Position numbers and translations under genes: made by a program
DNA from: Desulfuromonas sp.
GTDB lineage: Bacteria > Desulfobacterota > Desulfuromonadia > Desulfuromonadales > Desulfuromonadaceae
Reading direction: 5' to 3'
DNA: 36,084 bases
Assembly: GCA_021162745.1 (NCBI GenBank)
Contig: JAGGYC010000011.1
Location: 1-36,084 of the forward strand
The notes under the pieces: generated by a model
The model's input: the letters and a program-made list of their open reading frames with translations, nothing else
What the model was told of the DNA's origin: nothing
Database searches by the model: none
Shown: piece by piece, positions 1-35,733 of the stretch
Layout: every line of letters begins with the position of its first letter
How positions within the stretch are numbered: the first letter of the stretch is position 1

Positions 1-2787
<2,787 letters not shown>

Positions 2788-2838
2788 TCAATAATAAATT
2801 GACCTATAAAATCAGTTATTTTGGAGGTTACCAGGTAG

Positions 2839-5346
2839 ATGCTTTCACAACAGAATAAAGTTAGCGTCAATATAGAAAGTGAAATGCGCAAGTCCTATAT
2901 GGACTATGCGATGAGTGTCATTATCGGTCGTGCATTACCGGATGTTCGCGATGGTTTGAAACCAGTGCATCGGCGCGTTTTATATGCAATGCATGAATTA
3001 GGTAATGAGTATAATAAGCCTTATAAAAAATCGGCGCGTGTTGTTGGTGATGTCATTGGTAAATACCATCCTCATGGTGATACCGCTGTTTACGATACCA
3101 TTGTTCGCATGGCGCAAAGTTTTTCCATGCGTAATCCATTGATTGATGGCCAGGGCAATTTTGGTTCTATCGACGGTGATTCGGCTGCGGCCATGCGTTA
3201 TACCGAAGTGCGGATGGCTAAATTATCCCATGAACTGTTAGCTGATATTGATAAAGAGACAGTTGATTTTGGTCCAAACTATGACGATTCCTTAAATGAG
3301 CCACTGCTGCTACCCTGTAAATTTCCAAATTTGCTGGTGAATGGTTCTGAGGGTATTGCTGTTGGTATGGCGACAAAAATTCCCCCCCATAATCTGGGAG
3401 AAGTGGTCGATGGTCTGGTGTCTATTATCGACGATCCGACTTTATCATTTGAAGATTTGATGCAAAAAATTCCAGGACCGGATTTACCGACCAGTGGTTT
3501 TATTTTGGGTCAGGAAGATATTCGCGAGGCTTACAGTACCGGGCGTGGCATCTTTCAGATGCGTGCCAAGGCGATGGTTGAAATTGATCGTCGTACCAGT
3601 CGCGAGAGCATTATTGTTAACGAAATACCCTACCAAGTTAACAAAGCCAGGTTGATTGAAAAAATTGCCAACTTGATCAAAGAGAAGAAGATCGAAGGTA
3701 TTTCGGATCTGCGTGATGAATCCGACCGCGATGGCATGCGTATCGTCATTGATTTGAAAAGAGATACTGTCGCCGGCGTAGTACTCAATCAACTGTATAA
3801 GATGACCATGATGCAGACCTCGTTTGGCATCATTATGCTGGCGATTGTTGGTGGTCAGCCCAAGGTTTTAACCTTGCGCGAGGTCCTGGATCATTTTCTC
3901 GATCATCGTAAAGAGATTGTCACCCGTCGCTGTGTATTTGAGTTAAAGAAAGCGGAAGCACGGGCCCATATACTTGAAGGTCTTAAAGTTGCGCTGGATA
4001 ACCTTGATGAACTGATTCAGATTATCAAGAGTTCTGCAAATTCTCCGGAAGCTAAAACACGTCTGATTGAGCGCTTTACCTTTTCCATGATTCAAGCCCA
4101 AGCCATTCTCGATATGCGCTTACATCGCCTGACTGGTTTGGAACGCGATAAAATTCTCAATGAATACAAAGAGATTCTGGCACAGATAGCACGTCTTAAA
4201 GAAATTCTTGGCAGTGAAGTGGAAATTCTGAAAATTATCCGCAAAGAGCTGCTCTATGTTAAAGACGCCTATGCTGATGCACGACGCACGGAAATTATTG
4301 CCAAAACAAAAGACCTGTCCATTGAGGATTTAATTGTCGAAGAAGACATGGTCGTGACCGTCTCCCACACGGGTTATATCAAGAGAAATGCAGTCTCTCT
4401 CTATCGTTCACAGCGCCGAGGCGGTAAAGGTAAAACCGGTATGCGTCCCAAAGAGGAGGATTTTGTTGAGCATCTGTTTATCGCTTCAACACACTCCTTT
4501 ATTTTGGTTTTTACCGATCAAGGAAAAGTTTACTGGTTGAAGGTACATGAAATACCTCAGGGTGGACGGGCCGCGCGCGGTAAGGCGATTGTTAATTTGC
4601 TGCAACTTGACCCGACAGATCGCGTAATGAGTATCTTGCCGGTGAAGGAATTTGTCGAGGGTAAGCATATTATTGCTGCGACCAAAAATGGCGTTGTAAA
4701 AAAGACGGAGTTGATGGCTTATGCCAATCCACGTCAGGGTGGTATTATTTCCATGACCATTGACGAAGGGGATTCTCTTGTTTCGACACGAATAACCGAT
4801 GGCGGCATGGATGTGTTGCTCGCCAGCAATCATGGTAAATCGATCCGTTTTTCAGAAAAAGATGTACGGGCCATGGGCCGCACCGCACGCGGTGTGCGCG
4901 GTATGCAACTCGAAGGTAGCGACAGCATTATCGGTATGGAAGTGGTCAATGATAATACCGCTGCTACCCTGGTCAGTGTCACTGAAAATGGTTATGGTAA
5001 ACGAACCAGTCTCTCAGAATATCGGGTACAAAGCCGTAGCGGTAAAGGGGTTATTACCATCAAAACCTCTGATCGAAATGGCAACGTTGTTGACATTAAG
5101 CTGGTGAGTGATGATGAAGACCTGATGTTTATTACCGACCGTGGTAAAATTTTACGCACTCGTGTTGGTTCATTATCTATTATTGGTCGTAATACTCAGG
5201 GTGTGCGTCTGATGGTTCTTGAAGATGATGAACGAATTGTCGCAGTTGCCAAGTTGGCAGAAAAAGAAGAAGATGAACTGTTGGACAATGATACTGAGCA
5301 GCCAGAGGCTGATAATGAAGGTGTTAGCCCCGCTGAAGAGGAATAG
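2839..5346 (+). CDS. gyrA: DNA gyrase subunit A
   Basis: DNA breakage-reunion subunit of gyrase, 835 residues. The N-terminal part has [21 protein letters not shown], the quinolone-determining region [17 protein letters not shown], and the catalytic tyrosine in [11 protein letters not shown]. The long helical part has [15 protein letters not shown], and the C-terminal beta-pinwheel begins with the GyrA box QRRGGKG, which is needed for DNA wrapping. That box favours true GyrA over ParC. The tail is acidic ([14 protein letters not shown]). A strong GGAGGT lies about 10 bases before the ATG. The residue equivalent to E. coli Ser83 is Thr (about residue 82), a natural variant in several lineages. 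Probably co-transcribed with gyrB. Confidence 0.98.
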
Positions 5347-27727: not shown

Positions 27728-29785
27728 CTACTGAGAATCAGCCAGATCGTCTTTGTGTTTGTACATGGCTAAATCGACCGCAGCAACGAGTGTTTCGGCG
27801 CTGGTGCCATTCTCCGGGTAACTTGCCAAGCCAATACTGCATGAGGTGGTGACCGTTATCTGGTCGAGCTTAAATGGTTGGCAAAGGATGTCGTGAATGC
27901 GGCCCGACAGGGCGTTGGCCTGGGTCAGGGTGCTGTCGGGCAGCATGATAATGAACTCATCACCTCCCCAACGGCACAGGGTGTCGCATTCACGCACGGC
28001 ACCGCGCAGGCGCCGGGCGACCTGGATCAGCAGTTGGTCACCAATCAGGTGGCCGTGGGTGTCGTTAATCTGCTTGAAACGGTTAAGATCAAGCATGATC
28101 AGGGTAAAGGGCTGCGGCTGATCGGGTTGCAAGGCTTGTTCGAGCTGGTTGTTGAAATAGCGGCGGTTGGCCAGATCGGTCAGGGCATCGCGATGGGCCA
28201 TATCGTTAATCTGAGATTCCTGTTTCTTGCGTTCGGTGATATCGACGGCAAAGTTGAGGTAGATGTCATCGTCCTGACCGTCATCAACAGGACACCAGCA
28301 GACCATATCCCAGCGACCGTCGTCACGCTGGCGCTCTTTTACATGCAGATCGCCATTGCCGTTTTCCGCCGGGGGTTGACAGCAGTTACTGATCTCGCCG
28401 ACGACAATTCCCATCTCCTGCGCCTTGCGGTTGGCTGCGACCACCCGCTGAGTCGAATAACGCGCCAGCATGGCAGGATAAGGGAGGGCGTCGATCAGTG
28501 TTTGATTCAGGGCTTGGGAGGTTTCAAGCTGTTGCTGTTGTTGTAGGTGATCAACCGCAAACGACAGATCGTTCGCCATCTGTTGGACCAGCAGACTGAG
28601 TTCAGCACTGAAAAAATCGGTTTCGTCGGTATAGACCTTAAGGGCGCCGATCACCTCATTGTTGGCGTGGATAGGATACGCTGCGGAAGCACGGATACCG
28701 TTGCGTAATGCGGCCTCATACCATGGTGTACCGGCAAGCTGTTGCAGAAAGTTGTCGACGATAATCGGTCGATTCTCACGAATGGCTATGCTGGTGGGTC
28801 CATTGCCCTCGGCGCTGTCGGGATCCATGGTGATGTGGATCTCATCAATGTAATCGCACATGCTGCCGCTACGAGCGACCGGCTCAATCACTAATGATTC
28901 CTTGTTGACGATTCCCACCGATGCCAGCTTAAACCCGCCGTAGCGTACGGCAATGTCACAGACGTGTTGAAAAAGCTCTGTCTGCGGCAGTTGCTGGGCA
29001 ATGGCCTGATTGGTGGCGCTCAGGGCACTGTAGAGATTATTGCTGCGTTGTAGTCTGAGGCGTGCTTTGTCACGCGAGCGTACCCGTTTGCGTAAACTGC
29101 GGGTGGTGGTGGCGATACCGATGCTGCCCAGCAGCCATAATGACAACAGGCTGGCGGTCGTCGCGATGTTTTTTGTCCGTAGCATCATCTCCAGGGGCCG
29201 TATAGGGACATTAATGCTCAACGCTCCCCAGCTCGTTTCATTTTCCAGTCGATTGTCATCGTGACAGTTCAGGCACTGTTGGTCGGCGGTCAACGGATGC
29301 AGCATCCGATAGTAGGGTTGATTGTTAATCTCCGTCAGTTCGGTAATAGTTTGGCGATCATCGCCCTGTTGCTGCAGTTGGGTCTGTTCCCAGTGGTCTG
29401 GAGCGTTTTCAGGATTGATGGGGTTCAGGCTGGTGATGTGGCTGTAGACGCTGCTGACCGGAAAGTTACTTTGAATGTGGCTGAGCATCTGGGCTGGAAC
29501 CATGTGCTGTAACCGCAGTCCATTGCTTGTTTCCACTTGATGCAGACCCGGCCCGGCGGTGGGCAGGTAGATGCCACCGCTGTGTAGATTCCAGCGGCGC
29601 AGGCTGTCGGTGTAGGCAAGGGAAAGCTCTGCTGACTGGCGAGCCAATGCTAGAATCTCTTTGTTGCTCTGTTGCTGATGGATGGCGAGTGCCACCAACA
29701 GTAGAATGCACCAGAGCCCCTGGCTAAGCCAGGGCAGGCGGCGGGAAAAAAGCAGTTGATCGGTTTTGTCAGCCAGAGATTTCAT
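27728..29785 (-). CDS. Haem-sensor diguanylate cyclase (DUF3365/Tll0287-like, GAF, PAS, GGDEF)
   Basis: 685 residues. A first membrane helix (about 19-37) is followed by a periplasmic domain of the Tll0287/DUF3365 type, ending in a c-type haem motif CLNCH (171-175), and a second membrane helix (about 208-227). Cytoplasmic domains follow: a GAF domain (about 250-405), a PAS-like domain (about 425-520), and GGDEF with an intact active site RWGGDEF (607-611) and an intact RxxD inhibitory site (RECD) five residues before it. It should make c-di-GMP in response to a redox or gaseous signal sensed by the haem, as in the Geobacter c-haem sensors; the ligand is inferred. It is divergent from the cit operon. 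Confidence 0.9.
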   Translation of the reverse strand: MKSLADKTDQLLFSRRLPWLSQGLWCILLLVALAIHQQQSNKEILALARQSAELSLAYTDSLRRWNLHSGGIYLPTAGPGLHQVETSNGLRLQHMVPAQMLSHIQSNFPVSSVYSHITSLNPINPENAPDHWEQTQLQQQGDDRQTITELTEINNQPYYRMLHPLTADQQCLNCHDDNRLENETSWGALSINVPIRPLEMMLRTKNIATTASLLSLWLLGSIGIATTTRSLRKRVRSRDKARLRLQRSNNLYSALSATNQAIAQQLPQTELFQHVCDIAVRYGGFKLASVGIVNKESLVIEPVARSGSMCDYIDEIHITMDPDSAEGNGPTSIAIRENRPIIVDNFLQQLAGTPWYEAALRNGIRASAAYPIHANNEVIGALKVYTDETDFFSAELSLLVQQMANDLSFAVDHLQQQQQLETSQALNQTLIDALPYPAMLARYSTQRVVAANRKAQEMGIVVGEISNCCQPPAENGNGDLHVKERQRDDGRWDMVCWCPVDDGQDDDIYLNFAVDITERKKQESQINDMAHRDALTDLANRRYFNNQLEQALQPDQPQPFTLIMLDLNRFKQINDTHGHLIGDQLLIQVARRLRGAVRECDTLCRWGGDEFIIMLPDSTLTQANALSGRIHDILCQPFKLDQITVTTSCSIGLASYPENGTSAETLVAAVDLAMYKHKDDLADSQ

Positions 29786-30192
29786 GGGATCGCTCTATGG
29801 AATGGATCAATTCAGGCGAGACGAGAAATTCTTTTATTCGTAGAGCATTATTTTGATGGAAGCCACAATAATATTAAATATTAAAAATTTCAACATAATT
29901 AAGCCGGCGAGCCGGCAAGGGTGGTGGAATGACGGCCAGGTCTGCACTGTCTTGATACGCTGGTGTGCGAATTTGGGACGATAACCAGAGTTTTGTGTGC
30001 TGGAGTGGAAGCAAATGGAGTGTTTACCCGTTTGTATTTATTTCTAAGTGGTTGAAATGAAAAACTATTCTTTTGAGTGGATAAAAACTGCTAGAACGGC
30101 CCTCTTATTGCAGTAGTGCTAAGGCACAGTCTGTGTGTCTGTTATGGCACATAGACTGTGAAAAATATTCTTGCTGGAGCCACGGAGGGGCT
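29786..30192. promoter_or_regulatory. 407-bp divergent region between the haem cyclase and the cit operon
   Basis: Largely AT-rich, with no gene. Two symmetric sites stand out: GCCGGC GA GCCGGC at 29903-29916, and a longer inverted repeat at 30125-30160, listed separately. Promoters for both directions must lie here, but no -35/-10 pair is convincing. An ORF starting with GTG at 30133 would extend citC upstream across the inverted repeat, but it has no ribosome site. Confidence 0.5.
30125..30160 (+). promoter_or_regulatory. Inverted repeat upstream of citC (candidate operator or leader hairpin)
   Basis: CACAGTCTGTGTG (30125-30137) and CACATAGACTGTG (30148-30160) form a 13-bp inverted repeat with one mismatch and a 10-bp centre. 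It ends 23 bp before the citC ribosome site GGAGGGG (30184-30190). The position suits either an operator for a cit regulator or a hairpin in the mRNA leader. The sequence alone cannot decide. Confidence 0.5.
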
Positions 30193-31206
30193 ATGGTACG
30201 GGTGATACAGGGCTGTGAGCAAACGCAGCAGGTTGTCGAGTTGTTGGCACGCTTCGAGCTGAGCTATGAGAGCGATGTTGACGAGCTGCTCGGGGTCTGG
30301 GATAGCCATGGCCGGTTGTTGGCAACCGGCGGGCGTCGCCAGGCACTGCTGAAGATGATTGCCGTCGCAGGCGATCAACAGAGCGGAGAGTTGTTTTCCG
30401 CGCTGGTCAGTGAGCTGATCCGGCGTGGTTATCAGGACGGCATCGAGACCTTCTTTGTCTTCACCAAACCCCAGAACTACCATAGCTTTTCTGCGGTCAA
30501 CTTCCGCCTGCTCTGTGTGACGGATCAGGTGGCCCTGCTTGAGCACGGGCCGGGGTTGGCTGCTTATTTCAGGCGCTACCAGGGGCTGCGACGCACGGGA
30601 GATAACGGTGGCGTGGTAGTGAATTGTAACCCCTTTACCCTTGGTCATCGCTATCTGATCGAAACCGCTGCCCAGCGGGTTGACTGGCTGTATGTGTTTG
30701 TGGTCGAAGAGGATCGTTCCAGTTTTCCCTTCGCTGTCCGTCTCGATCTGGTGCGCCGGGGGGTGGCCGATCTGGACAATGTCATCGTGCTGCCCAGCGG
30801 TCCCTATGCCGTCAGTCAGATTACCTTTCCCGGTTATTTTCTGAAAAATTCCGCTCAGGTTGAGCATCAACAGCATCAGGTCGATGCCCAGCTGTTCGCG
30901 CGTCATCTTGCGCCCCATTTTCACATTTATCGTCGTTTTGTCGGCAGTGAACCCTACTGTCAGACCACGCAGCGTTATAACGTCGCCCTCAACACCCTGT
31001 TACCGGAACAGGGGGTTGAGGTGCATGAGCTGCCACGGGCGACCAGCGCGATCGGGGCGATCAGCGCATCGCAGGTGCGTCGTCTGCTCAGGCAGCGCGC
31101 GCTAAATAAATTATCGCAACTGGTGCCGGAAACCACCCTCGCTTATCTGTTGTCTCCGGCATGTGAACAAACCGTTCGGTGGGGGGATTCTCCCGGGAGG
31201 CATTGA
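30193..31206 (+). CDS. citC: Citrate lyase ligase ([citrate (pro-3S)-lyase] ligase)
   Basis: Activates citrate lyase by acetylating the thiol of the prosthetic group on the acyl carrier protein, using acetate and ATP. 337 residues. The N-terminal GNAT-like domain (about 1-130) has FELSYESDVDELLG and VFTKPQN. The C-terminal nucleotidylyltransferase domain has VVNCNPFTLGHRYLIE, the HxGH-type site as in other CitC proteins, then VVEEDRSSFPFAVRLDLV and GPYAVSQITFPGYFLK. I chose ATG 30193 because GGAGGGG lies 3 bases upstream; earlier in-frame starts lack such a site. The stop TGA overlaps the citD start by one base. Confidence 0.94.
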   Translation: MVRVIQGCEQTQQVVELLARFELSYESDVDELLGVWDSHGRLLATGGRRQALLKMIAVAGDQQSGELFSALVSELIRRGYQDGIETFFVFTKPQNYHSFSAVNFRLLCVTDQVALLEHGPGLAAYFRRYQGLRRTGDNGGVVVNCNPFTLGHRYLIETAAQRVDWLYVFVVEEDRSSFPFAVRLDLVRRGVADLDNVIVLPSGPYAVSQITFPGYFLKNSAQVEHQQHQVDAQLFARHLAPHFHIYRRFVGSEPYCQTTQRYNVALNTLLPEQGVEVHELPRATSAIGAISASQVRRLLRQRALNKLSQLVPETTLAYLLSPACEQTVRWGDSPGRH

Positions 31207-31469
31207 TGGAAATTCGTAATAAGGCACAGGCTGGAACCATGCAGTCCAGCGATATGATGGTATTTGTCGAAGCGGCCGATGAATTGATTATTGAGATCGA
31301 TTCGACGGTGTTCAAGCAGTTTGAACACCTGATTCGGCAGCGCATTGAGCAGCAATTGAAGGTGTTGGATGTGAGCCGGGGGCGGATTCGCGTCAGTGAT
31401 CGTGGGGCGTTGGATTATGCCATTGATGCGCGCATCGAAACCGCCGTACGCCGTTCACAGGAGGGTTAA
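31206..31469 (+). CDS. citD: Citrate lyase acyl carrier protein (gamma subunit)
   Basis: 87 residues. Carries the 2'-(5''-triphosphoribosyl)-3'-dephospho-CoA group on a serine; the block KAQAGTMQSSDMMV near the N-terminus holds the modified Ser (SSD). VKxxDRGALDYAIDARIETAV at the C-terminus matches the family. The length is normal (about 90-98). The ATG at 31206 overlaps the citC stop. An upstream GTG at 31179 would add residues that do not match the family. The next gene starts directly after its stop codon. Confidence 0.94.
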   Translation: MEIRNKAQAGTMQSSDMMVFVEAADELIIEIDSTVFKQFEHLIRQRIEQQLKVLDVSRGRIRVSDRGALDYAIDARIETAVRRSQEG

Positions 31470-31946
31470 ATGAAAAATGCCTGGTTTAAGGAGTGTTCGC
31501 AGGGGCGTCGCTTTCTGCTCAAGATCTCGCAAGGGGAATGCCTAGTGGAGAAGTTACAGGCTTTTGCGGCCGAAACGGGCGTGAAAACCGCCGTGATTCT
31601 TTCTGCTGTTGGCTCGGTAAGCCATGTCCGTTACCGTGGCATCAAAGCAGGAGCTAAACTGCCGATCACCCCGCCGCGGATAAGTGTTCATGAGGTGGAA
31701 GGTCCGCTGGAGCTCCTCGGCTTGGAAGGCAATATCGTCCCCAACGATAAAGGGGAGAGCGACTGTCATCTGCATATTCTGATGGCAAAATCCTCCGGTG
31801 AAGTGCTCGGCGGTCATTTGTTTGACGCCAGGGTTTTTGCCAGCTGTGAAATTGTGCTGAGTGAATTTCATGGCGACGGCATTGAGCGGCATAAATCTAA
31901 AACCGGCGGTATTTCAACCATCTATCTGGAGGATAGCCATGAGTGA
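31470..31946 (+). CDS. PPC-domain (DUF296) protein inside the citrate lyase operon
   Basis: 158 residues, essentially one PPC/DUF296 domain: FLLKISQGECLVEKLQAFA, TAVILSAVGSVSHVRYRG, then DCHLHILM, SSGEVLGGHLFDARVFASCEIVL. The His residues of CHLH and GGHL are the ones that bind a metal in known PPC structures. In plants the domain occurs with AT-hooks; here there is none, and bacterial stand-alone members have no settled role. It starts on the base after the citD stop and overlaps the citE start by 8 bp, so it is translationally coupled on both sides. The standard order citC-D-E-F-X-G has no such gene. This argues for a function tied to the lyase; DNA binding is only one option. Confidence 0.85.
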   Translation: MKNAWFKECSQGRRFLLKISQGECLVEKLQAFAAETGVKTAVILSAVGSVSHVRYRGIKAGAKLPITPPRISVHEVEGPLELLGLEGNIVPNDKGESDCHLHILMAKSSGEVLGGHLFDARVFASCEIVLSEFHGDGIERHKSKTGGISTIYLEDSHE

Positions 31947-32865
31947 TAGCGGTTTTGTCCTGCGGCGCTCTCTATTGTACGTGCCGGGGAATATGCCATC
32001 GATGTTGCAGAACGTGCCGGTGTTCGATTGCGATGCGGTGTTTATCGATCTGGAGGATGCGGTTCCTCTCAACGAAAAAGATGCGGCACGCAATCTGGTC
32101 AGTCGTTTTATTGCCACCTATACGGAGCGTAACAAAGAGGTGTTTGTCCGTATCAATGCCCTCGATACCGAATGGGGCCTCGATGATCTGAAAAAGGTGC
32201 TGCCGTCGCTGCCCGATGGTATCCGGCTGCCTAAGGCCGATACCCCGGAGATCGTTGAGCGCCTCGATACGCTGTTGACGGAGATGGAGGAGGCGCTGGA
32301 GGTGGAGATCGGCACCTTCAAGATTATCCCTTCCATCGAAAGCGCCCTGGGGGTGATCAACTCAATCAAGATAGCCCGCTGTTCGTCACGGGTGATCGCT
32401 CTGGCCTTTGGTGCCGAGGATTACACCGCCAGTATGGAGATTGAACGGACCAAGAGCGGCGAAGAGCTGTTTCATTCGCGGGCGCGGGTGCTGTGGGCGG
32501 CCAAGGCCGCCGGCATTCAGGTCATCGATACCATCTTTGCCGATGTCGGCGACATGGAAAGTTTCCGCACCGAGGTGGCGTTGGTGAAAAATCTTGGCTT
32601 TACCGGCAAGTCGCTGGTCAATCCACGCCAGATTGACGTGGTGCATGAGGTGTTTGCCCCGCAAGCGAATGAGATTGTCTATGCCCAGCAGGTGATCGAG
32701 GCCATTATCCAGGCGCGCAAGATGGGTACCGGGGTTATCGCTCTTAATGGCAAGATGGTTGATGCGCCGGTGGTCAAGCGGGCGGCGCGGGTGATCAAAA
32801 CCGCCGTATCGCAGGGATTGCTCGAGTACGAACTCGATGATGAGGTGATTTATGGTGCAAAATAG
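31939..32865 (+). CDS. citE: Citrate lyase beta subunit (citryl-ACP lyase)
   Basis: 308 residues. Cleaves citryl-ACP to oxaloacetate and acetyl-ACP. The HpcH/HpaI-aldolase-like fold is shown by RRSLLYVPGNMPSMLQN, DAVFIDLEDAVPLNEKDAARNLV, VFVRINALDTEWGLDDL, ALAFGAEDYTASM and FTGKSLVNPRQIDVV, all typical of CitE. The ATG at 31939 follows GGAGG (31929-31933) and overlaps the PPC gene by 8 bp. A longer in-frame ORF begins at 31861, but it reads through the PPC gene and lacks a site. The stop lies inside the start of citF (14-bp overlap). Confidence 0.96.
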   Translation: MSDSGFVLRRSLLYVPGNMPSMLQNVPVFDCDAVFIDLEDAVPLNEKDAARNLVSRFIATYTERNKEVFVRINALDTEWGLDDLKKVLPSLPDGIRLPKADTPEIVERLDTLLTEMEEALEVEIGTFKIIPSIESALGVINSIKIARCSSRVIALAFGAEDYTASMEIERTKSGEELFHSRARVLWAAKAAGIQVIDTIFADVGDMESFRTEVALVKNLGFTGKSLVNPRQIDVVHEVFAPQANEIVYAQQVIEAIIQARKMGTGVIALNGKMVDAPVVKRAARVIKTAVSQGLLEYELDDEVIYGAK

Positions 32866-34390
32866 TCTCGGACGCTGGATTCCCCAGCAGTTTAACGGCA
32901 GGGCGTGTCGCCCCTATTGCGACCCATTTTCAGTCCAACCGAATGTTCAGCGCGCGTCACGTGCTCTGCGCCGGGTCAATCCCGGGCAAAGTAAGCTGGT
33001 GAGCAATCTCATCGACGCGGTGATTGCATCGGGCCTTAAGGACGGCATGTGTATCTCCACCCATCACCATCTGCGCAACGGTGATGCGTTGCTCAATAAC
33101 GTGGTCCGGGTGATCGATACCCTGGGGATTCGTGATATCACCATCGCTTCCAGTTCCGTTCATCCGGTTCATGCCGAGCTGATACCCTATATCCACAGCG
33201 GGGTGATCCGCGGATTTGAATGTGGCGTCAATGGTCTGATCGGCGAGCTGGCCAGTAAAGGGGAGATCCATTGCCCCATCACCGTCCGTACCCACGGTGG
33301 CCGGGCGCGGGCGATGATGAGTGGCGAACTGAAGGTCGATGTGGCCTTTATTGCCGCCCCCTGTTGCGATCTCTACGGCAATATGAACGGTTGCAGCGGC
33401 CCGTCGGCCTGTGGTTCGCTGGGCTATGCCTATCCCGATGCCGACTACGCCCATTGCGTGATTGCCGTCACCGACAACCTGCAGCCCTATCCGGTGACAC
33501 CGATCTCCATCGCCCAGACCCAGGTCGATTATGTGGTGGAAGTGGAACGGTTGGGTGATCCGCAGAAGATCGTCTCCACCACCACCCGCATCACCAGTGA
33601 TCCCATCGGTTTGATGATCGCCAAGCACGCTGCCGAAGTGATCGAGGCCGCCGGCTTGCTCAAGGACGGGTTTTCGTTCCAGACCGGCAGCGGCGGTACC
33701 AGTCTGGCAGTGGCTGATAACGTGCGTAAAAAGATGCTGGCCGCCGGGGTCAAGGGCAGTTTTGGCAGTGGCGGTATCACCAGCTATTTTGTCGATATGT
33801 TGGAGCACGGCTTGTTCAACACCCTGTTCGATGTGCAGTGTTTTGATCTTGAGGCGGTGCGTTCCATTGCACGTAACCCGAATCATCTCGAAATCAGCTC
33901 CGATATGTACGCCAATCCGTTCAATGGCGGTGGGGTGGTCAATCAGCTCGATGCGGTGATTCTCGGTGCTACCGAGGTGGATGTTGATTTCAATGTCAAC
34001 GTCAACACCGAATCCAACGGTTATCTGCTCCACAACACCGGTGGCCACAGTGATACCGCTGCCGGAGCCAAGCTGTCGATTATCACTGTACCGTCTATCC
34101 GTGGTCGGCTGCCCATCGTTCGCGATGCGGTGACCACCGTGACCACCCCCGGCGAAACCGTTGATGTGATCGTCACTGAGCGCGGTATAGCCGTCAATGA
34201 CAACCGTCCTGAGCTCAAGCAAGAGCTGCTCAAGCGCAAGCTGCCGGTCAAGGATATCCGCCAACTGCAGCAGGAGATTGTCGCCCTGACCGGCCAACCT
34301 AAAGCCGTGGAGTTTGAAGATGATGTTATCGCCGTTATCGAGTACCGCGACGGAACAATCATTGACGCCGTACGCCGCGTTAAGGACTGA
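32852..34390 (+). CDS. citF: Citrate lyase alpha subunit (citrate:acetyl-ACP transferase)
   Basis: 512 residues, the usual length. Exchanges the acetyl group on the acyl carrier protein for citrate. Family blocks include DGMCISTHHHLRNGDALLN, THGGRARAMMSGEL, DVAFIAAPCCDLYGNMNG, GFSFQTGSGGTSLAVADNV, GGITSYFVDMLEHGLFNTLFDVQ, NGYLLHNTGGHSDTAAGAK and GIAVNDNRPEL. The start overlaps citE by 14 bp, and citX begins before its stop. An uninterrupted 446-codon frame on the other strand is a codon-bias shadow. Confidence 0.97.
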   Translation: MVQNSLGRWIPQQFNGRACRPYCDPFSVQPNVQRASRALRRVNPGQSKLVSNLIDAVIASGLKDGMCISTHHHLRNGDALLNNVVRVIDTLGIRDITIASSSVHPVHAELIPYIHSGVIRGFECGVNGLIGELASKGEIHCPITVRTHGGRARAMMSGELKVDVAFIAAPCCDLYGNMNGCSGPSACGSLGYAYPDADYAHCVIAVTDNLQPYPVTPISIAQTQVDYVVEVERLGDPQKIVSTTTRITSDPIGLMIAKHAAEVIEAAGLLKDGFSFQTGSGGTSLAVADNVRKKMLAAGVKGSFGSGGITSYFVDMLEHGLFNTLFDVQCFDLEAVRSIARNPNHLEISSDMYANPFNGGGVVNQLDAVILGATEVDVDFNVNVNTESNGYLLHNTGGHSDTAAGAKLSIITVPSIRGRLPIVRDAVTTVTTPGETVDVIVTERGIAVNDNRPELKQELLKRKLPVKDIRQLQQEIVALTGQPKAVEFEDDVIAVIEYRDGTIIDAVRRVKD

Positions 34391-34865
34391 TATACTGGAT
34401 GCCCGTGAACAGCGGCAGTGGGAGCTGGATCAGTTTCTACACGCTGGTCACAACACGGTGCTGATGCTGTCTTTGAACTATCCCGGTCCGCAGAAGCTTC
34501 CGACGGGCTGCGGGGCATTGATGGCCTGGGCGCAGGAGCAGATCGAGACTGGCCTCGGCGCCATGGCGGTGGTGCAGAGTTGTGATGCCGCCGGCATGTA
34601 CAGCCTGTTTGTCTGCGACAGGGATAGTGTGGGCTGTAAGCACTATGGTGTCGAAACGGAGTCGGCCTTTGCCGCTGCCCGTCTGCTCGATATCGATGTC
34701 TATGGCCGCTGGTGCGGTCAGCTTGATCGCAAAAAACTTGGCTTGCCACCACGCCGCTGCCTGTTGTGCGATCAGGCGGCGGTGGACTGCATAAGGAAGG
34801 GACAGCATGACCAGGATGCCGTTGTACGCGCCGCTCAGCGCTACCTGCACAGCTTTTCCCGCTGA
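34320..34865 (+). CDS. citX: Apo-citrate lyase phosphoribosyl-dephospho-CoA transferase
   Basis: 181 residues. Attaches the prosthetic group precursor to CitD. Typical blocks are LDAREQRQWELDQFL, LNYPGPQKLPTGCGALMAWA and KKLGLPPRRCLLCDQAA, with the CxxC-containing C-terminal part. It overlaps the end of citF by about 70 bp and the start of citG by about 60 bp. I prefer ATG 34320 (or the next codon, also ATG), which follows GTGGAG at a suitable distance; a TTG at 34314 is less likely. Confidence 0.9.
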   Translation: MMLSPLSSTATEQSLTPYAALRTDILDAREQRQWELDQFLHAGHNTVLMLSLNYPGPQKLPTGCGALMAWAQEQIETGLGAMAVVQSCDAAGMYSLFVCDRDSVGCKHYGVETESAFAAARLLDIDVYGRWCGQLDRKKLGLPPRRCLLCDQAAVDCIRKGQHDQDAVVRAAQRYLHSFSR

Positions 34866-35733
34866 TCGTCTCAGTGAGGCATTATGTTTTGGTGCCCGCA
34901 GTGAACTGCTGCTGACGCCGAAACCGGGGCTGGTGGATCTCTACGACAACGGATCGCATAGCGATCTCGATCTGGTGCGGATGCAGCGCTCCATCGATCT
35001 GATGCCGGTATATTATGCCGAACTGCTCAATGAACCACTGGAACCCCTCGATGTGGAGCGGTTACAGGCGATTGGCATGCGCGCTGAAGCACGGATGCGT
35101 GAACATTGTGATACCAACACCCATCGCGGTTATCTGTTTCTCAGCGGGATCATCTTGATCGCTCTGCGTCTCGATGGTGATATTCGCCTGGGTATTATTC
35201 GGCTGTCGGAACGGTTGTTCAAGGTGCGCAAATCTGAAGACAGCCATGGTCAGCAGGTACGGCAGCGTTATCAGACGGGGGGGATTATCGGCGAATGTTT
35301 AAGGGGACTGCCCACGGTCTTTGAACATGCCCTGCCCTGTTATCGGCGTCAACGTCAGCAGCATGGCGATGAGCAGCGAGCGGCACTGGCGATGATGGCC
35401 ACCTTGATGCAAGTCACCGAAGATACCACCAGCTATCACCGTTGTGGTCAAGCCGGTATTGAACAGGTGCGTGCCGACGGCGTTGAACTGGAGCAGCGAC
35501 TGCTCGGTGGAGAAACTGTTGAATCCTGGCTGTGCCAGCGTAACAGCTTGTATCAACAGATGAACCTGACCATGGGCGGCGTGGCCGATCTTATTGCCAT
35601 CTGTTTTGCCCTTGATCGGTTGCAGATTGCAGTGATGGAACCCGCAGGGCAAGACATTCGGGGTCGCGTACCCGGTTTACCTCAGCCAATGTCGCCGTTT
35701 AGCAACAAAAAAACATGGATCAAAATGCCATGA
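34807..35733 (+). CDS. citG: Triphosphoribosyl-dephospho-CoA synthase
   Basis: 308 residues. Makes 2'-(5''-triphosphoribosyl)-3'-dephospho-CoA from ATP and dephospho-CoA. Family blocks are ELLLTPKPGLVDLYDNGSHSD, NTHRGYLFLSG, SHGQQVRQRY, GIIGECLRGLPTVFEHALP, QVTEDTTSYHRCG and NLTMGGVADLIA. It starts inside citX. It is a separate gene, not fused to citX as in some organisms. It is the last recognisable gene of the operon; no transporter follows in the window. Confidence 0.94.
   Translation: MTRMPLYAPLSATCTAFPADRLSEALCFGARSELLLTPKPGLVDLYDNGSHSDLDLVRMQRSIDLMPVYYAELLNEPLEPLDVERLQAIGMRAEARMREHCDTNTHRGYLFLSGIILIALRLDGDIRLGIIRLSERLFKVRKSEDSHGQQVRQRYQTGGIIGECLRGLPTVFEHALPCYRRQRQQHGDEQRAALAMMATLMQVTEDTTSYHRCGQAGIEQVRADGVELEQRLLGGETVESWLCQRNSLYQQMNLTMGGVADLIAICFALDRLQIAVMEPAGQDIRGRVPGLPQPMSPFSNKKTWIKMP

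Follow-up and report, generated by a model that had tools for sequence, protein, structure and literature searches.

We found that one group of citrate lyase operons has a gene of its own for a PPC/DUF296 protein, a dedicated component with a fixed position between citD and citE, and that this gene is, as far as our searches show, a real and undescribed seventh gene of that group. The list of citrate lyase components has counted as complete, as befits a textbook enzyme. That several phyla retain a seventh gene between two of the subunit genes implies that one lyase group works differently, and it provides a concrete biochemical context for a widespread family often titled DNA-binding. Our literature search, which covered mainly open-access papers, found nothing linking the DUF296/PPC domain with citrate lyase, in line with the earlier note, which knew of no described role. 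The reading that we place first, at a probability of roughly one in three, is that the PPC protein acts at the CitE step and decarboxylates the oxaloacetate released there.

The window, which is the whole 36,084-nucleotide stretch of DNA analyzed here, contains genes running in one direction in the order citC, citD, PPC, citE, citF, citX, citG. Pfam matches were obtained for all six classic genes. The features of the operon are:

30133–31206, forward strand: citC, citrate lyase ligase, whose true start may lie downstream of the listed GTG (TIGR00124, 270.9 bits, above the cut-off of 262.1).
31206–31469, forward strand: citD, acyl carrier (gamma) subunit, 87 aa (TIGR01608, 78.6 bits, above the cut-off of 63.5).
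31460–31465, forward strand: GGAGGG, likely ribosome-binding site of the PPC gene within the 3' end of citD, as read from the sequence.
31470–31946, forward strand: PPC/PCC-domain gene, the seventh operon gene, ATG start, 158 aa (PF03479, E 2.1e-26).
31928–31932, forward strand: GGAGG, likely ribosome-binding site of citE within the 3' end of the PPC gene, likewise read from the sequence.
31939–32865, forward strand: citE, beta subunit (citryl-ACP lyase), 308 aa (PF03328, E 5.8e-61; TIGR01588, 334 bits, below the cut-off of 443.4).
32852–34390, forward strand: citF, alpha subunit (TIGR01584, 625.9 bits, above the cut-off of 501.45).
34314–34865, forward strand: citX, prosthetic-group transferase (PF03802, E 2.6e-33; TIGR03124, 95.7 bits, below the cut-off of 105.25).
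34807–35733, forward strand: citG, triphosphoribosyl-dephospho-CoA synthase (PF01874, E 1.5e-43; TIGR03132, 154 bits; TIGR03125, 120.4 bits).

The citC stop and the citD ATG overlap by one base in our reading. The ATG of the PPC gene begins on the very next base after the citD TAA stop (31467–31469), and its TGA stop (31944–31946) gives an 8-bp overlap with citE, whose ATG is at 31939. These junctions confirm from sequence the position described in the earlier note, and the gene placement supports its proposal that the PPC gene is translated together with the lyase genes. The same order of citC, citD, citE, citF and the cofactor gene is found in the Klebsiella plasmid citCDEFG operon with oadA and citS (L103), but there citD and citE overlap directly with no PPC gene between them, and sodium-pump oxaloacetate decarboxylase genes lie alongside. 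CitC, CitD and CitF of the window clear the curated NCBIfam cut-offs for standard citrate lyase and CitE, CitX and CitG stay below them, an early hint that this lyase may belong to a lineage of its own. The citX reading frame is listed from a TTG inside the end of citF, and its real start is probably further downstream. For the citG product, the MdcB (malonate decarboxylase) model gives a better score than the CitG one, and neither score reaches its cut-off. Upstream of the operon, a divergent gene on the reverse strand (27728–29785) encodes Tll0287-like, GAF and GGDEF domains and is possibly a sensor.

Membership of the encoded protein in the PF03479 (PCC, DUF296) family is clear, with a match of 93 bits against a gathering cut-off of 25 that aligns residues 13–134 to positions 1–116 of the 117-position profile. 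At E values up to 0.01, PF03479 is the only Pfam family matched, with no acetolactate decarboxylase model among the hits, and no NCBIfam family is matched. Solved PPC/PCC proteins are described as trimeric, and AHL-type PPC transcription factors carry an AT-hook with the core RGRP; this core is absent from the 158-aa translation, as the earlier note had stated. A search of the window's own genome with the PPC protein (E ≤ 0.001) returned only the protein itself, and a search of plasmids returned no match.

Among 58 relatives (the window's own genome included), the PPC protein was matched in 17; 16 of these matches are strong, with E values no higher than 2e-50, and the other is weak. All 16 strong matches sit between citD and citE, and an independent citF search detected citF in exactly those 16 of the 58 genomes, such that 16/16 citF-bearing relatives have the PPC gene. 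The weak match (L017 in G039) is 26% identical and has no cit match in its stretch. We also ran a PPC-led pattern scan of named genomes, which yielded 34 loci that were selected via PPC and are hence blind to its absence – absence is detectable only by citF-led searches. The order citD-PPC-citE-citF is present in 33 of these 34 loci, in all 33 of which the PPC gene's own stop is close to, or overlaps, the citE start. PPC-CitE or PPC-CitD fusions, prompted by long open frames in some GC-rich loci, were ruled out. The remaining locus (L067, an Archaeoglobales MAG) encodes a 138-aa protein of 36% identity, and since it has no cit match in its stretch it was excluded from lyase counts.

Most of the 33 loci come from records of Desulfuromonas or Geobacter type, and the others are betaproteobacterial (Propionivibrio, Accumulibacter and others), myxococcal, acidobacterial and gammaproteobacterial, the last comprising one MAG named as such and a Neptunomonas MAG. 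Many of the 33 are MAGs, in which isolated odd placements could be binning errors; the named isolates are Citrifermentans bremense, Geomonas species, Malonomonas rubra, Pelovirga terrestris and Propionivibrio dicarboxylicus. Two loci (L059 and L060) are near-copies, and the PPC protein is identical in G1316 and G058. Three betaproteobacterial or gammaproteobacterial records (L059, L060 and L062) have an operon without a citC match, citC being on another contig, and the PPC gene is still between citD and citE. Median pairwise identity is 0.59 for PPC, compared with 0.53, 0.40 and 0.45 for citC, citX and citG and 0.68, 0.74 and 0.73 for citD, citE and citF. Linkage across distant lineages, which the earlier note had asked for, is thus borne out by 16/16 citF-bearing relatives and 33/34 scanned loci in several phyla: it is confined neither to this strain nor to its close relatives, and orthologs do not mostly sit in unrelated contexts.

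The citCDEFXG cluster of Geobacter bemidjiensis, a relative of the window's organism, is given as Gbem_3862–Gbem_3856 in the part of PMC2996986 available to us, which names no extra gene and does not contain 'DUF296'; seven consecutive tags for six named genes would fit the PPC gene as the unnamed seventh. In citC-less betaproteobacterial operons, we observed a monomeric isocitrate dehydrogenase-like gene (named by reading) directly upstream of citD, both with PPC (L059, 5133–7361) and without it (L138, 11777–14068).

We examined the distribution of the PPC gene across lyases using a CitF tree of 48 rows, from which L048 (truncated citF) and three loci lacking PPC within the group, placed in a separate tree, were omitted. 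The 33 PPC-bearing rows (34 less L048) lie on one side of a branch with support of 100/100, and in this unrooted tree a single change of PPC state suffices. In citF-led samples, citF was present in 12/395 genomes of the window's phylum, 3/399 of the order of Propionivibrio dicarboxylicus, 12/297 of its family and 2/369 of the Propionivibrio class; three of the citF samples were centred on G058, whose appearance was thus certain. Outside the PPC group, none of 15 citF genomes has a PPC match at E ≤ 0.001. Inside the group, the citF-led searches gave 24 distinct genomes, of which 21 have PPC (the 16 relatives plus G058, G061, G1316, G1380 and G1442) and three have no PPC match (G1496, G1265 and G1351). 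In these three loss genomes citD leads straight into citE, and the gap-free junction shows that PPC is absent from the operon, whatever the completeness of the genomes. Separately, seven loci (L076, L097, L100, L101, L105, L125 and L126) contain citF-like genes with no citD or PPC match in the fetched stretch, and two of the genomes concerned (G1361 and G1421) also have no citC match; these genes possibly encode a different enzyme.

The loss genomes tie the PPC gene to CitE. We compared sites that are strictly invariant among PPC-bearing rows and found that the three loss genomes have changes at 16–18 of 116 such sites in CitE, 2–5 of 191 in CitF and 0–1 of 28 in CitD. The corresponding ranges for PPC-bearing rows, with the row in question left out each time, are 0–2, 0–4 and 0–1, apart from six changes at 122 CitE sites in the acidobacterial L056, which is also the sole row with Q in place of K59 in PPC. 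Near-invariant columns changed in all three loss rows number 21/141 in CitE, 0/245 in CitF and 0/36 in CitD. As a control, we took columns that hardly vary in rows other than the beta group: loss rows depart from 25/153 in CitE, 15/264 in CitF and 1/36 in CitD, and PPC-bearing beta rows from 4, 11 and 0, which indicates that CitF shifted somewhat across the beta group and that the shift of CitE is particular to the loss rows.

In the tree that includes the loss genomes, their CitF falls within betaproteobacterial rows (12 rows, SH-aLRT 100). Their CitE fell outside all PPC-bearing group rows in a quick tree and inside the group in a careful one, where it is weakly supported beside Geomonas and beta rows and has a long branch of 0.58; constraining it to the beta rows was not rejected (AU p 0.209). 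These results suggest that, with the loss of PPC, CitE either evolved rapidly or gave way to another CitE. The three loss genomes form one clade, so PPC loss and CitE change count as one event, which functionally ties PPC to CitE; the coupling is well supported. Loss of citC as the cause of PPC loss was ruled out, as citC is present in all three loss genomes. The CitE proteins of the three loss operons, in L139 (9991–10908), L137 and L138, also carry G138S, E176D and A180P (window numbering), which alter positions that the four classic CitE rows in the comparison conserve as well, and this PPC-less lyase may have a new substrate.

We next considered the fold. A PPC model built from 30 aligned sequences reached a mean pLDDT of 88.9 (80.4 for the first model) and aligned with seven solved PPC entries at Z 16.2–19.2 (rmsd 2.2–2.9 over 129–143 residues). 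The top folds, AF0104 (2h6l, Z 18.4) and PH0802 (2dt4, Z 19.2), are also the best PDB sequence relatives of the window protein (E 3.6e-17 and 1.4e-13); the title of 2h6l describes a metal-containing protein, and, unlike the window gene, neither is a lyase gene. The model also aligned with acetolactate decarboxylases at Z 7.5–9.6 (rmsd 5.1–5.5 over 125–138 residues), although Z values near 8 can mirror a common arrangement and a shared fold shows no activity. Human PTD012 followed at Z 5.3 (rmsd 4.5), with the next row at 3.8. The first model gave the same groups on top, with a Foldseek match to acetolactate decarboxylase 4bt2 (E 3.8e-4), but it placed a plant lectin (Z 5.3) alongside PTD012 (Z 5.5), which makes the PTD012 match weak taken alone and leaves that to acetolactate decarboxylase better supported. 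A profile link between PPC and acetolactate decarboxylase in hhalign was not significant (probability 3.7%) and served as a motif alignment only.

alpha-Acetolactate decarboxylase (4bt2, 6j92) thus has its fold in common with the window protein, together with the HxH...GGH motif seen in one of these enzymes, but is about 210–240 residues long where the window protein has 158. PTD012/C11orf54, the weaker fold match, is reported to decarboxylate 3-dehydro-L-gulonate, with a zinc ion held by three histidines, beta-keto-acid chemistry and a structure related to acetolactate decarboxylase (PMC12435205); unlike the window protein it is a DUF1907 protein of a eukaryotic sugar pathway and has 313 residues in 1xcr. 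The putative metal-binding histidines that the earlier note had called intact are present in the window protein as H100, H102 and H116 (HxH...GGH). The relevant positions are:

31638–31679, forward strand: codons of residues 57–70 (GIKAGAKLPITPPR), a conserved stretch of lyase-linked PPC proteins.
31767–31775, forward strand: codons of H100-x-H102, the first two putative metal ligands, His in 34/34 lyase-linked PPC proteins.
31815–31817, forward strand: codon of H116 (GGHL), the third putative ligand, His in 29/34 and Gln in 5/34.

The five proteins with Gln come from beta- and gammaproteobacterial records (L058, L059, L060, L062 and L064). Within the conserved stretch, I58, G61, A62, P65, I66 and R70 are kept in 34/34 lyase-linked PPC proteins and K59 in 33/34, and residues 61–70 have the lowest model confidence (mean pLDDT 56). 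We compared these proteins with eight general PPC proteins, a set that excludes L115 as a repeat of L017: R140 is present in 34/34 and 8/8, and K59 and R70 are present in 0/8. The Archaeoglobales relative (L067), which lies beside tryptophan-synthesis-like genes (named by reading), is likewise without K59 and R70.

CitE cleaves citryl-CitD to acetyl-CitD and oxaloacetate, a beta-keto acid. The relationship of PPC to the acetolactate decarboxylase fold, which the earlier note had not brought up, suggests action on oxaloacetate, and it is the grouping of the PPC fold with two beta-keto-acid decarboxylase families, together with the loss-event tie to CitE, that leads to the decarboxylation reading. 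In the mechanism we propose, a small metal-site PPC protein would be positioned on or near CitE and would convert the oxaloacetate freed there to pyruvate and CO2. Metal and beta-keto acid would be bound at an acetolactate decarboxylase-like site formed by H100, H102 and H116, and the oxaloacetate carboxylates by K59, R70 and R140, basic residues that hardly vary; reversible citrate cleavage would be pulled forward without a separate oxaloacetate decarboxylase beside the operon. We regard a built-in PPC/DUF296 oxaloacetate decarboxylase as a tentative, even somewhat doubtful, description of this lyase group as a whole. If true, it would be the third beta-keto-acid decarboxylase in the acetolactate decarboxylase/PTD012 fold group, and citrate lyase would become a machine that turns citrate into acetate and pyruvate. 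To our knowledge, no enzyme activity has so far been assigned to a prokaryotic DUF296 protein, and a decarboxylase PPC would be the first.

Gene neighborhoods provide a weak and biased hint in favor of PPC as an oxaloacetate decarboxylase. Genes for OadA, malic enzyme or acetolactate decarboxylase lie near 6/12 PPC-less lyase loci and 0/34 PPC-bearing loci (window included), a count that used one query per enzyme, taken from PPC-less loci (L103, L075 and L093) that are themselves three of the six positives. Without these query sources the count is 3/9 versus 0/34. Three of the positives come from one genus (one locus being in both sets), flank lengths differ, and eight PPC-less loci are omitted from the count (L076, L100, L101, L105, L116, L117, L125 and L126). 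OadB/carboxyltransferase-type genes are nearby in 2/34 PPC-bearing loci. Genome-level exclusion between PPC and the sodium-pump oxaloacetate decarboxylase was considered and showed no pattern, with an OAD_beta gene in 8/16 citF-bearing relatives versus 14/42 others.

Several observations count against decarboxylation. The fetched stretches of the three loss loci contain none of the searched decarboxylase genes. H116 is replaced by Gln in 5/34 proteins, which is unexpected for a three-His metalloenzyme and weighs against an enzyme. In G. bemidjiensis, a PPC-type organism, the part of PMC2996986 available to us reports oxaloacetate decarboxylases predicted elsewhere in the genome and suggests a reductive TCA role for the lyase, in which an oxaloacetate drain would not be obviously useful. 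Also on this side are the single loss event with its unsure CitE placement, the acetolactate decarboxylase Z values near 8, the non-significant profile link and the OAD_beta genes in 8/16 citF-bearing relatives.

The earlier note's placement, motif, lack of an AT-hook and linkage all stood, but it had left three functions – assembly or stabilization, action on the acetylated or CoA-like prosthetic group, and regulation – unranked and undecided. Second in our order, and possible to our minds, is a non-catalytic PPC oligomer that binds CitE and is needed for lyase assembly, stability or control, its metal site being structural or vestigial. The substitution of H116 in 5/34 proteins is the main argument for such a partner, and the tight coupling between two subunit genes, the altered CitE where PPC is missing and the retention of PPC between citD and citE in L059, L060 and L062 despite citC being elsewhere all fit it. 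So does its sequence conservation, which lies between that of the accessory genes and the subunits, and nowhere is the model less confident than in the conserved 57–70 stretch, like a loop that becomes ordered on a partner. On the other hand, H100 and H102 in 34/34 proteins go beyond the needs of a scaffold, and three genomes keep the lyase with no PPC match, which makes PPC dispensable for some enzyme forms.

Rather unlikely, though third in order, is that PPC is the citrate lyase deacetylase (EC 3.1.2.16) and hydrolyzes the CitD acetyl thioester. This enzyme switches the lyase off at citrate exhaustion, which guards organisms with a working TCA cycle from a futile cycle, and we know of no gene assigned to it. 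Its source is Rubrivivax gelatinosus (Rhodopseudomonas gelatinosa), and a 1981 paper by Giffhorn, cited in PMC11204750, concerns the deacetylase of R. gelatinosa and R. palustris. PPC may supply either a missing oxaloacetate decarboxylase or the gene of a deacetylase characterized biochemically decades ago. The PPC gene adjoins citD, and PTD012, of related fold, hydrolyzes p-nitrophenyl acetate (PMC12435205), but the PPC-less genomes show their change in CitE, with CitD altered at only 0–1 of 28 sites, and the persistence of citC in the loss genomes makes the idea less likely. The portions of PMC8307300 and PMC4257681 available to us contain nothing on the R. gelatinosus citrate lyase. Ranked below the deacetylase, and also unlikely, is action on the prosthetic group or a lyase side product, in which PPC might mend a wrongly acylated carrier or clear away an off-pathway keto acid; it is compatible with the fold and with the coupling to CitE, whereas citX and citG are not adjacent to the PPC gene. 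A transcriptional or other regulator of the operon comes last and is highly improbable: although the solved PPC structures 3htn and 3hwu are titled 'putative DNA-binding protein', the window protein has no AT-hook core and carries a metal-site motif, its gene is fixed among structural genes and PPC absence goes with a change in CitE.

One of the PPC-less loci that supplied a query in the neighborhood count, L075 (G150), has its lyase operon followed by acetolactate decarboxylase-like and acetolactate synthase-like genes (1555–3929, named by reading), and these acetolactate genes would link citrate to acetoin.
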